From Myxococcales bacterium (GTDB lineage Bacteria; Myxococcota; Myxococcia; Myxococcales; Myxococcaceae), in NCBI GenBank assembly GCA_020846875.1, contig JADLDB010000123.1, positions 1-38,975 on the forward strand: DNA of 38,975 nt, written 5' to 3'. The stretch's first letter is position 1. Every line of letters begins with the position of its first letter. The notes under the pieces are model-generated. The model saw only the letters and a list, made by a program, of their open reading frames with translations. It made no database searches and was not told the origin of the DNA. The position numbers were made by a program, and so were the translations under genes. Positions 514-32,337 of this stretch are shown piece by piece.

Positions 514-1923
514 TCAGCAGCGCTTCAAGTACCGCCCCGCGCCGCGCTCGACGCGCAGGTCGCCGTCCTGCCACTGCACGCGTCCGTTGACGACGGTGGT
601 GGCGACCTTCCCGGTCAGCTCGAAGCCCTCGAAGATGTTCCGGTCCACCTTCTGGTGGTGCGTCTTCGCCGAGATGCGGCCCGTGCCCTTCGGGTCGTAC
701 AGCACGAGGTCCGCGTCGCTGCCGACCTGAACGGCGCCCTTCCGCGGGTACAGCCCGAAGATCTTCGCGGCCTGCGTGGACGTCACGTCGACGAACTGCT
801 GCAGCGTGATGCGCTGCTTCGCCACGCCGTAGGTGTACAGGAGCGACATGCGGTTCTCGATGCCCGCCGCGCCGTTGGGGATCTTCCGGAAGTCATCCTT
901 CCCCATCACCTTCTGATCCGCCTGGCGGAAGGGGCAGTGATCCGTCGCCACGTGCTGGATGCCGCCGGTGGCCAGCGCGTTCCACAGGTACTCCTGGTGG
1001 CCCTTCGGTCGAATCGGCGGGCTCATCACGTACGCGGCGCCCTCGAAGTCGGGCTTCTCGTACACGCTGTCGTCGAGCAGCAGGTACTGCGGGCAGGTCT
1101 CCACCAGCACGCGCTGCCCGGCCTGGCGCGCGCGGTACACGGCGTCCATCGACTCCTTGCAGGTGAGGTGCACGATGTAGACGGGCTGCGTCTCGGCGGC
1201 GGTGGCGTCGTGGCCGTTGCGGGCGTCGCTCGCGGCGCGCGCGAGCTGGATGACGCGGTTGGTGGCCTCGCCCTCGAGGTAGCTGGGCCGGCTCTTCGGG
1301 TGCCACTTCGGCTCCTTGAGGCCGCGCTCGGCCAGCCGGTTCTGCAGCGCCACCACGGCGTCCCCGTGCTCGCAGTGGCTCGTCACCAGCGCGCCGAGGT
1401 CGTGCGCGGTGTCCAGCACGCCGATCAGCTCCACGTCGTCGACGCCGATCGCGCCGCGGTACGCCATGAAGATCTTGAAGGACTGGATGCCGTCGTTCTT
1501 GAAGACGTGCTGCATCTCCTTCTTCACCTGCTCGTTGAACCAGGTGACGGCCATGTGGAAGCCGTAGTCGGCCACCGACTTCTTCGCGTTGTTCATCCAG
1601 AAGTCGCGGGCCTCGAGCAGCGACTGGTTCCGGTTGGGGATGATGAAGTCGATGATGGTGGTGGTGCCGCCCGCCACGCCGGCCGCGGTGCCGGTGTAGA
1701 AGTCGTCGGCGCTGGTGGTGCCCATGAAGGGCAATTCCATGTGCGTGTGCGCGTCGATGCCGCCGGGGAAGACGTACTGGCCCGAGGCATCCACCGCCTG
1801 CGTGCCGGCGGGGACGTCGAGGCTCTTCCCGATGGCCTTGATCACGCCTGCGTCGCAGAAGACGTCGGCGACGTACTGATCGGTGGCGGTGACGATGGTG
1901 CCGTTGCGAATGACGAGACCCAT
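514..1923 (-). CDS. hydA: dihydropyrimidinase
   Basis: A 469-residue amidohydrolase-fold enzyme, the normal length for dihydropyrimidinase, which opens the ring of 5,6-dihydrouracil or dihydrothymine to the N-carbamoyl-beta-amino acid in the cytosol. The binuclear metal site is readable: H59 and H61 in GIDAHTH, carboxylated-lysine candidate K150 in SFKIFMAY, H183 in TSHCEHGD, H252 in VYIVHLT, and D328 in HVATDHCPF. The YRGAIGVDD and MSPPIRPK stretches are also typical of the family. The ATG at 1923 is chosen because AGGAGG lies about 8 bases upstream and MGLVIRNGTIV is a typical N-terminus; the open frame extends further upstream but into the neighbouring gene. It lies 32 bp after the beta-ureidopropionase gene on the same strand, so both are probably co-transcribed. 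A hydantoinase with related substrates is the alternative, but the context favours pyrimidine catabolism. Confidence 0.95.
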   Translation of the reverse strand: MGLVIRNGTIVTATDQYVADVFCDAGVIKAIGKSLDVPAGTQAVDASGQYVFPGGIDAHTHMELPFMGTTSADDFYTGTAAGVAGGTTTIIDFIIPNRNQSLLEARDFWMNNAKKSVADYGFHMAVTWFNEQVKKEMQHVFKNDGIQSFKIFMAYRGAIGVDDVELIGVLDTAHDLGALVTSHCEHGDAVVALQNRLAERGLKEPKWHPKSRPSYLEGEATNRVIQLARAASDARNGHDATAAETQPVYIVHLTCKESMDAVYRARQAGQRVLVETCPQYLLLDDSVYEKPDFEGAAYVMSPPIRPKGHQEYLWNALATGGIQHVATDHCPFRQADQKVMGKDDFRKIPNGAAGIENRMSLLYTYGVAKQRITLQQFVDVTSTQAAKIFGLYPRKGAVQVGSDADLVLYDPKGTGRISAKTHHQKVDRNIFEGFELTGKVATTVVNGRVQWQDGDLRVERGAGRYLKRC

Positions 1924-30571: not shown

Positions 30572-30682
30572 AGGCCGCCAGCCGGAAGCGGCGCACAGCA
30601 GCGCACACCCACTTCCTTGCGGCGCGGCGCGGTTGTCTCAGAATGCGCGCAGCCCTGCGGGGCGACGAAAGGAGGTGGTGCC

Positions 30683-30727
30683 TTGCACTGTCACGAACAA
30701 GGAACCATCTCCGCGGTGTGCCTCTGA
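30683..30727 (+). CDS. possible 14-codon leader peptide
   Basis: TTG 30683 has a near-perfect Shine-Dalgarno (AAAGGAGG, 7 bases upstream) and opens a 14-codon frame, LHCHEQGTISAVCL, with TGA at 30725-30727. Its last third (30709-30717) is one arm of a 9-bp inverted repeat. The strong ribosome binding site in front of so short a frame, upstream of a terminator, is the arrangement of a leader peptide. There is no homology evidence. Confidence 0.35.
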   Translation: MHCHEQGTISAVCL

Positions 30728-30760
30728 CGCGCCCAGCCGGCGCCCAGTGAGACCGCGGAG
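30709..30760 (+). promoter_or_regulatory. leader stem overlapping the short frame
   Basis: CTCCGCGGT at 30709-30717 and ACCGCGGAG at 30752-30760 are perfect 9-bp inverted repeats enclosing about 34 bases. The left arm overlaps the end of the 14-codon frame, so ribosome position could affect folding. It lies just upstream of an intrinsic terminator. Confidence 0.45.
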
Positions 30761-30787
30761 AGGTCAGGAAAAACGAGTTTGAAAGGA

Positions 30788-30828
30788 GGCCGCCCTGGAC
30801 GTAATTCGGGGCGGCCTTCCCCTTTTTC
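30788..30828 (+). terminator. intrinsic terminator just before the YheT-like gene
   Basis: GGCCGCCC (30788-30795) and GGGCGGCC (30809-30816) form an 8-bp stem, followed by TTCCCCTTTTT. It ends only 10 bp before the ATG at 30838. It either terminates the short leader transcript, or ends the SpoIID transcript, or acts as an attenuator for the hydrolase gene. Confidence 0.7.
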
Positions 30829-30837
30829 CCCCGTCCC

Positions 30838-31800
30838 ATGCCCCTCTTGCCCGACGACTTCCGCCCCGCCGCGGGCCTGTGGGACGGGCACGCGCAGACC
30901 TTCTTCGGGAAGGTGGCGCGCCTGTCGCTCGCGCTGCCGGTGCGCCGGGAGCGCCGCGAGACGCCGGACGGGGACTTCGTGGACGTGGACGTGCTGGCCG
31001 CGCAGGCCGGGGCGCCCACGGTGCTGGTGCTGCACGGGCTGGAGAGCTCCTCCCAGGCGGGCTACGTGCAGCAGACGCTGCAGGGGCTGGCCGCGCGCGG
31101 CTGGGGCGCGGTGGCGCTCAACTTCCGCGGCTGCTCGGGGCAGCCCAACCGACTGGCGCGCTCCTACTCCTCGGGCGACACCACCGACGCGCGCTGGCTC
31201 GTCTCGCGCCTCCCTGCCCCGCGGGCTGCGGTGGGCTTCTCCCTGGGCGCGTCGGTGCTGCTCAACCTGCTCGCGCAGGACGGGGAGAAGACGGGCCTCT
31301 TCGCGGCGGCGGCGGTGTGCGCGCCCTTCGACCTGGCCTTCGGCGCGCGCTACCTGGACTCGCAGCAGCGCTTCGCCCGGGTGTACCTCACCAACTTCCT
31401 GCCCAGCCTCAAGGAGAAGGCGCTGGAGAAGGCCCGCCGCTTCCCCGCGCTGCTGGACGCCGGCGCCATCGCCAGGGCGCGCACCCTTCGCGACTTCGAC
31501 CACCTGGTGACGGCGCGGCTGTTCGGCTTCGCCTCGGCCGAGGACTACTACGCGCAGTCCTCGACGGGCCCGAAGCTGTCGCGGCTCTCCGTGCCGACGC
31601 TGCTCGTCTCCGCGGAGGACGACGCGCTCGCCCCCGCCTCCAACCTGCCCGCACACACACACCGCCACGACGCGCTGCACGTGCTGTGCACCACCGCCGG
31701 AGGGCACCTGGGCTACGTGGCGGGCAGCGTGCTGCGCCCCCGCTTCTGGGTGGAGGAGCGGGTGCTGGCCTGGCTGGAGGAGCGGCTCACGAGCCCCTGA
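30838..31800 (+). CDS. YheT-family alpha/beta hydrolase
   Basis: A 320-residue hydrolase. The YheT/ABHD1-like N-terminus is DFRPAAGLWDGHAQTFFG, the oxyanion region is VLVLHGLESSS, and the fold includes LNFRGCSGQPN. The catalytic triad candidates are S135 in VGFSLGAS, D261 or D262 in SAEDDALAP, and H290 in GGHLGYV. Members hydrolyse short-chain esters or lipids; the natural substrate is unknown. The start ATG 30838 has no Shine-Dalgarno and sits 10 bp after an intrinsic terminator, so expression may depend on read-through. A start further in would cut the conserved N-terminus. Confidence 0.9.
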   Translation: MPLLPDDFRPAAGLWDGHAQTFFGKVARLSLALPVRRERRETPDGDFVDVDVLAAQAGAPTVLVLHGLESSSQAGYVQQTLQGLAARGWGAVALNFRGCSGQPNRLARSYSSGDTTDARWLVSRLPAPRAAVGFSLGASVLLNLLAQDGEKTGLFAAAAVCAPFDLAFGARYLDSQQRFARVYLTNFLPSLKEKALEKARRFPALLDAGAIARARTLRDFDHLVTARLFGFASAEDYYAQSSTGPKLSRLSVPTLLVSAEDDALAPASNLPAHTHRHDALHVLCTTAGGHLGYVAGSVLRPRFWVEERVLAWLEERLTSP

Positions 31801-31803
31801 CGG

Positions 31804-32337
31804 CTACTTCTTCTTCCCGGGCGACTTGGCCGGCTTCAGGGTGATGATGCAGTGGTGGAAGTTGCCGTCGATTTGCGCGGCGGCGTAGCGCCCCGAAGGG
31901 TGAAACCACGTCTTCTGCAGCTTGCTGCTCTCGCGCATGCCCGACGCGTAGCAGACCTGCAGCTTGTCGCCTGCCTCCAGCGCGAAGCCGGGCGTCTCGC
32001 CGTCCGTCACCAGCTCGGCGTGCACCTTGATGCCGTTGGCCTGGTTGGCGGGGGCGGGCAACTGCACCTTCTGCTTCCACTCGTAGGGCGCCTTGTTGAC
32101 GTCGATGAAGCGGACACAGGAAAGCTGGCCTTCCTCGCGCTCCATGGCGTTGAGCTCCTTGGGCCAGGTGGGCGGCACCTCGGGGTTGGTGGCGCAGAAG
32201 TGCAGCTCCACCAGGTCGTTGGCCTCCTGGCGCTCGAAGACCAGCCAGGTGCCGTCCTTCGACCACCCGTGGAACACCTCCTGGGCGAGGGCCGGCATGG
32301 CCAACAGCAGGATGATGCACGACAGCACGACTCGCAT
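31804..32337 (-). CDS. secreted protein of unknown function
   Basis: A 177-residue protein with a signal peptide (MRVVLSCIILLLAMPALAQ). The mature part contains GWSKDGTWLVFERQEAND, FALEAGDKLQVCYASGMR and WFHPSGRYAAAQIDGNFHHC, which reads like a beta-rich periplasmic protein, possibly a distorted propeller or WD-like fragment. The basic tail is SPGKKK. The start ATG 32337 has GGAGG 6 bases upstream. It lies 36 bp after another small exported-protein gene on the same strand. Confidence 0.75.
   Translation of the reverse strand: MRVVLSCIILLLAMPALAQEVFHGWSKDGTWLVFERQEANDLVELHFCATNPEVPPTWPKELNAMEREEGQLSCVRFIDVNKAPYEWKQKVQLPAPANQANGIKVHAELVTDGETPGFALEAGDKLQVCYASGMRESSKLQKTWFHPSGRYAAAQIDGNFHHCIITLKPAKSPGKKK

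Follow-up and report, generated by a model that had tools for sequence, protein, structure and literature searches.

Upstream of a gene for a YheT-like alpha/beta hydrolase in a myxobacterial genome, a strong Shine-Dalgarno (SD) opens a frame of only 14 codons that is followed by an intrinsic terminator, and the question is whether this locus is a leader serving the hydrolase gene or an RNA gene in its own right. The window, i.e., the whole 38,975-nt stretch of DNA analyzed here, is contig C123 of a 7.06-Mb genome, and the gene preceding the element in it carries a SpoIID domain. The sequence-only reading of the window had proposed a leader-peptide attenuator or a short regulatory RNA, and its building blocks were found in place. 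Direct reading of the sequence recovered the SD and the 14-codon frame. The 9-bp stem is genuine, as CTCCGCGGT (30709-30717) and ACCGCGGAG (30752-30760) are exact reverse complements, and grows to 13 pairs with one bulge (P2 in Table 1). The terminator, formerly placed at 30788-30828, was shifted by a few bases, and the hydrolase ATG does lie 10 nt past the T-run with no SD of its own. What had escaped that reading is a 14-bp hairpin (P1) that contains both the SD and the TTG start. The 198-nt stretch as a whole folds 3.0 standard deviations below its own shuffles (z -3.0).

Table 1. Features of the element in the window (window positions) and of three leads from outside the family (positions of the respective locus).
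Feature	Position	Strand	Remarks
Promoter-like TTGCGG-N16-CAGAAT	30617-30644	+	by eye; absent from the sequence-only reading
Small 5' hairpin GCCC-UGCG-GGGC	30652-30663	+	absent from the sequence-only reading
Extended SD GAAAGGAGGTG	30667-30677	+	pairs with 11 nt of the 16S 3' end
P1 5' arm (SD core and TTG start)	30671-30685	+	
14-codon frame LHCHEQGTISAVCL	30683-30727	+	TTG 30683-30685, TGA 30725-30727
P1 3' arm with anti-SD mimic CCAUCUCC	30698-30712	+	CCACCUCC in most relatives
P2 5' arm	30704-30717	+	overlaps the P1 3' arm
P2 3' arm	30752-30764	+	
Intrinsic terminator	30785-30827	+	15-pair stem 30785-30819, loop of 5, T-run 30823-30827
YheT-like alpha/beta hydrolase	30838-31800	+	neighbour outside the RNA; Abhydrolase_1 and Hydrolase_4 domains
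Lead L117, frame MVSDKKAAAIRVASVES	1490-1680		
Lead L179, frame MSSHTQVVAMRVASTGAE	1385-1560		
Lead L186, frame MSDAYRRSDLRTAFAALWA	1500-1660		

The extended SD shows perfect complementarity to the end of the 16S gene of the same genome, CACCTCCTTTC. In P1, GGAGGTGGTGCCTTG pairs with CAAGGAACCATCTCC through 14 pairs and one mismatch, which hides the SD together with the start codon. The anti-SD-like stretch inside the frame constitutes the P1 3' arm and part of the P2 5' arm. As these two arms overlap, P1 and P2 are mutually exclusive in full, and the short frame is thus included in a pair of alternative helices that share the anti-SD stretch.

How widely the element is distributed was examined with searches of increasing breadth. 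The core matched 13 other genomes of the family Myxococcaceae (blastn, E<=2e-12); further matches were weaker and partial. A covariance model built from 14 sequences found matches in 39 of the 96 family genomes and, over the whole phylum, in 40 of 195 genomes, 39 of which were of the same family. A second model built from 30 sequences (E<=0.5) detected the element in 84 of the 96 family genomes, one copy each, and in one of the 99 other genomes of the phylum; L117, a locus from outside the family, is excluded from all counts of 84 below. Note that the E-values of these models are rough, yet all of the 84 occurrences show the SD, a 7-nt spacing, and a frame of 13-16 codons. When the exact pattern was sought in 84,980 species genomes, 40 records matched, 39 of them bearing myxobacterial titles (Myxococcus, Corallococcus, Archangium, Pyxidicoccus, Hyalangium, Citreicoccus, and related MAGs). 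The remaining record (L154, BNCN01000002.1) is titled Comamonas sp. KCTC 72670, but was probably mislabelled, as its ABC transporter gene matches the L047 query at 98.7% identity and its pyrG gene does so at 100%. The sequence-only reading had named the absence of the short frame and the stem from relatives as the outcome that would speak against it; both recur in the relatives.

No covariance-model match was obtained in 12 family genomes. A pattern search in these 12 yielded one clear candidate in G051 (a central region of about 115 nt on the minus strand of L165), which comprises GACGAAAGGAGGTGGTGCCATG, an ATG, and an 18-codon frame with no evident anti-SD stretch; the other matches listed looked like chance. 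In the sister families (f2 and f7), the same extended SD followed by an ATG and a frame of 17-19 codons was seen in three loci. We regard L117, L179, and L186 as leads rather than members; judged from their sequences, they are possibly deeper relatives of the element.

The arrangement of the SD and the frame is strikingly uniform across the family. The SD reads AAGGAGGTG or GAGGAGGTG in all of the 84 occurrences, and the start codon (TTG or GTG) is always found exactly 7 nt after AAGGAGG. The frame lengths change in steps of 3, and the stops vary among TGA, TAG, and TAA. The distance from the start to the anti-SD stretch is 24, 27, or 30 nt in 83 occurrences, the exception being L109, where the search pattern failed to match. 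Neither of the other two frames has a comparable conserved stop near the position of the frame stop. When both strands of 85 loci were searched for the motif GGAGG-N7-start, a frame of 13-16 codons followed it at 84 of the 84 elements but at only one of the 19 other sites in the same loci, which served as the control.

Both helices are recovered well beyond the window. The SD core is paired in all of the 84 P1 hairpins (50 of them distinct), and at least two-thirds of the start codon is paired in 82. The folding energies of P1 range from -19.2 to -26.8 kcal/mol, and a duplex calculation between the SD and the 16S tail (the 3' end being that of the genome containing the window) gave -24.1 to -24.9 kcal/mol. 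P1 and the SD:16S duplex are thus about equally stable. P1 exceeded the shuffles in 28 out of 28 representatives, and its upper part differs in sequence between genera with the pairing kept. On the 14-sequence alignment the P1 5' arm is invariant, so that it is the wider set that supports P1. P2 beat the shuffles at p<=0.05 in 24 of the 28 representatives and was no better than them in four (L042, L043, L093, and L047). On the 14-sequence alignment, 93.9% of the cells of P2 were paired, with two-sided changes at four of the 13 pairs, and this pairing was far above that of the slid controls, none of which came close. The small 5' hairpin is kept in the relatives sharing the SpoIID/YheT context (SpoIID-type) and in g12, g15, and g21, with a UUCG loop in most relatives; none was seen in the loci with pyrG downstream (pyrG-type).

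The genes flanking the element, assigned for the 84 occurrences by tblastn of the neighbour genes, fall into at least four unlike contexts. In 64 occurrences pyrG lies downstream, its start being 0.5-0.7 kb on, and an ABC transporter gene precedes the element in 63 of these 64, which is also the arrangement in Myxococcus xanthus. The SpoIID/YheT region is the context in 14 occurrences, pdhB-like and MATE-like genes are nearby in three, and other neighbours were found in three. As the neighbours vary, we propose that the element is an autonomous RNA gene and not an attenuator dedicated to YheT; as far as these neighbourhoods tell, the RNA is independent of any single downstream gene. Beyond the hydrolase gene of the window, positions 31804-32337 of the minus strand encode a 177-residue protein without a Pfam match, which is kept downstream in the g4 relatives.

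Signals that may direct separate transcription were found on both sides of the element. By eye, most SpoIID-type relatives carry CTTGC-N16-nAnnAT with a similar spacing to the SD, the form there being CTTGC-N16-GATGAT; a consensus promoter scan of the window did not report its counterpart, TTGCGG-N16-CAGAAT. In the pyrG-type loci (e.g., L047, L075, and L084), GTGGCG-N15-nRTTA is conserved roughly 45 and 20 nt upstream of the SD (again by eye), and this sequence is probably the promoter of the RNA in those loci. Downstream, a script picked a terminator-like hairpin after the element in 83 of the 84 occurrences, albeit some of the picks in g8 were not the strongest visible hairpin. From these signals we infer that the element is transcribed separately.

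A further box, CTGAACGCACAG, was observed 7 nt before the -35-like CTTGC in eight of the 14 SpoIID-type loci (L028-L031, L033, L036, L037, and L039); the window has only a degenerate form of it (30595-30622). The composite CTGAACGCACAG-N7-CTTGC occurs exactly at the element in G008, G010, G011, and G091, and no further exact copy was found in these four genomes; at the element of the genome containing the window, it was unmatched within 3 mismatches. As further exact copies were lacking, no regulon was seen.

Altogether, sequence comparison establishes a conserved single-copy element in varying contexts, with two predicted helices that exclude one another and a maintained micro-frame. The explanation that we favour, with moderate confidence, is that the element is an autonomous single-copy sRNA gene with its own promoter and terminator, the product of which may act as a translation-gated RNA switch. 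The RNA would be about 170-180 nt long and carry a translated micro-frame of 13-16 codons. By default, P1 would form first during transcription, the anti-SD stretch of the frame masking both the SD and the start; capture of the very long SD by a 30S subunit would prevent this, competing with P1 and permitting P2, in which the anti-SD stretch pairs with the downstream arm and the SD is free. Loaded ribosomes would block P1, P2 could form behind them, and each ribosome would terminate at the stop codon, shortly after the P2 5' arm. Since P1 and the SD:16S duplex are similar in strength, the outcome would be set by the number of free ribosomes or by the position of the ribosome on the frame. Candidate outputs are the stability of the RNA, base pairing between the freed arm and other RNAs, or the holding of 30S subunits. 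In the window, YheT would receive at most read-through from the RNA gene.

Three other explanations need to be weighed against the translation-gated sRNA. In a classical leader-peptide attenuator, translation of the frame would decide whether the terminator forms and, with it, read-through into YheT. This possibility, which we consider very unlikely, fits the layout of frame, stem, and terminator, as well as the start of YheT just past the terminator (no more than about 175 nt from the SD) in eight of the 84 occurrences, in the window without an SD. However, the other 76 have different neighbours, and the element stays intact in SpoIID-type loci where YheT is lost or displaced: the gene is cut to a 33-residue match in L028, lies 0.85-0.95 kb off in L027 and L046, and is absent within the available sequence in L032, L036, and L038. 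When pairing between the upstream segment and the terminator arm was set against shuffles, no conserved antiterminator was found: the pre-terminator arm pairs with the terminator arm somewhat better than shuffles in g4, a weak signal (mean z -1.6), but not in the other genera (mean z -0.7 to 1.2). The trpL frame contains Trp codons; none of the 62 distinct frames inspected here has a run of one amino acid. With YheT adjacent in so few occurrences and no conserved antiterminator, a dedicated YheT attenuator was rejected, and of the two options in the sequence-only reading, it is the short RNA that fits better.

Alternatively, the element may be a small mRNA whose 13-16 residue peptide is the functional molecule, P1 and P2 merely regulating its synthesis. 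Retention of the frame with an extended SD in all 84 occurrences agrees with this reading, as do a partly conserved L-T/N/I-D-S...ASTSA pattern in the pyrG-type peptides and a dN/dS of 0.64 in the 16-codon class. On the other hand, dN/dS is 0.90 in the 14-codon class and 1.36 in the 15-codon class, where it exceeds that of the shifted frames; with a value of about 1 overall, purifying selection on the peptide was not detected across the three length classes. The N-terminal residues are unlike between the SpoIID-type and pyrG-type loci, and the T/I-S-A residues that they share are accounted for by the anti-SD bases that encode them. As the residues drift and the frame is kept, selection appears to maintain translation of a frame of set length rather than the peptide, albeit some of this conservation could reflect RNA constraint, as the P1 3' arm doubles as coding sequence within the frame. 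A functional peptide is therefore unlikely in our view; judging from these substitution patterns, the peptide itself is probably unimportant, and it is the act of translation that sets the shape of the RNA. Quite unlikely, too, is a trans-acting sRNA whose anti-SD stretch or freed P2 arm pairs with the SD regions of mRNAs, the frame being incidental. Conservation is highest in the CCACCUCC/CCAUCUCC stretch and the SD, and the gene stands alone with a terminator, both of which suit such a role, but the invariant 7-nt spacing from SD to start and the in-frame stops would be left unexplained, and there is no conserved exposed seed, since the P1 loop is variable.

Returning to the translation-gated sRNA, a single copy kept throughout this family of social soil bacteria despite at least four neighbourhoods likely matters to the cell. 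Such an RNA would be a leader-peptide switch freed from a downstream gene, with the anti-SD of the frame rivalling 16S rRNA for one and the same SD. How translation capacity is sensed at the onset of starvation-induced development is a long-standing question. We tentatively raise the idea, rather improbable as it stands, that the element is a family-wide sensor of free ribosomes, in which the anti-SD of the RNA itself and that of 16S rRNA would hold the extended SD in balance, so that 30S loading would flip P1 to P2 and signal translation capacity to the myxobacterial decision between growth and development.

Comparison with catalogued RNAs gave no identity for the element. Thirteen representative loci had no match to Rfam 15 at the gathering score, and the window had only chance-level matches far below it. 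The sole match to the 6S RNA covariance model in the genome is elsewhere (contig C37), tRNA and tmRNA were rejected in eight related loci, and no plasmid-borne copy was matched. No report of this RNA was found in open-licence papers, which is weak evidence of absence, as most subscription papers and preprints fall outside that scope. Pxr of Myxococcus xanthus is likewise a myxobacterial stand-alone sRNA with several stem-loops, but it lies between nla19/pxrR and a NADH dehydrogenase gene under a sigma-54 promoter and differs in architecture, and the available text of its reports mentions no frame (PMC5568312, PMC5684412); with SpoIID and YheT as the neighbours in the window, Pxr was rejected. 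Dual-function sRNAs such as VcdRP (PMC8672173; surveyed in PMC5521070) share a conserved short frame in a small RNA, whereas VcdP has 29 residues and in our element the residues drift, the frame alone being kept. A Staphylococcus aureus uORF leader resembles the element in its extended SD and in a small frame with regulatory translation, but acts in cis on one named gene, and the accessible part of that report describes neither a stand-alone RNA nor an in-frame anti-SD (PMC13009471). Among the literature covered, the closest working analogue in print appears to be rnTrpL/peTrpL, the trp attenuator sRNA of Sinorhizobium meliloti, of which both the RNA and the peptide act in trans; it shares with the element a short RNA, a 14-residue leader frame, and a terminator, but is linked to trpE(G), and the RNA begins with the ATG of its frame, whereas our element has no fixed downstream gene and bears its extended SD inside a hairpin (PMC7298713). 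On this evidence, the RNA family is new and represents a variant of the leader-peptide/dual-function RNA kind.
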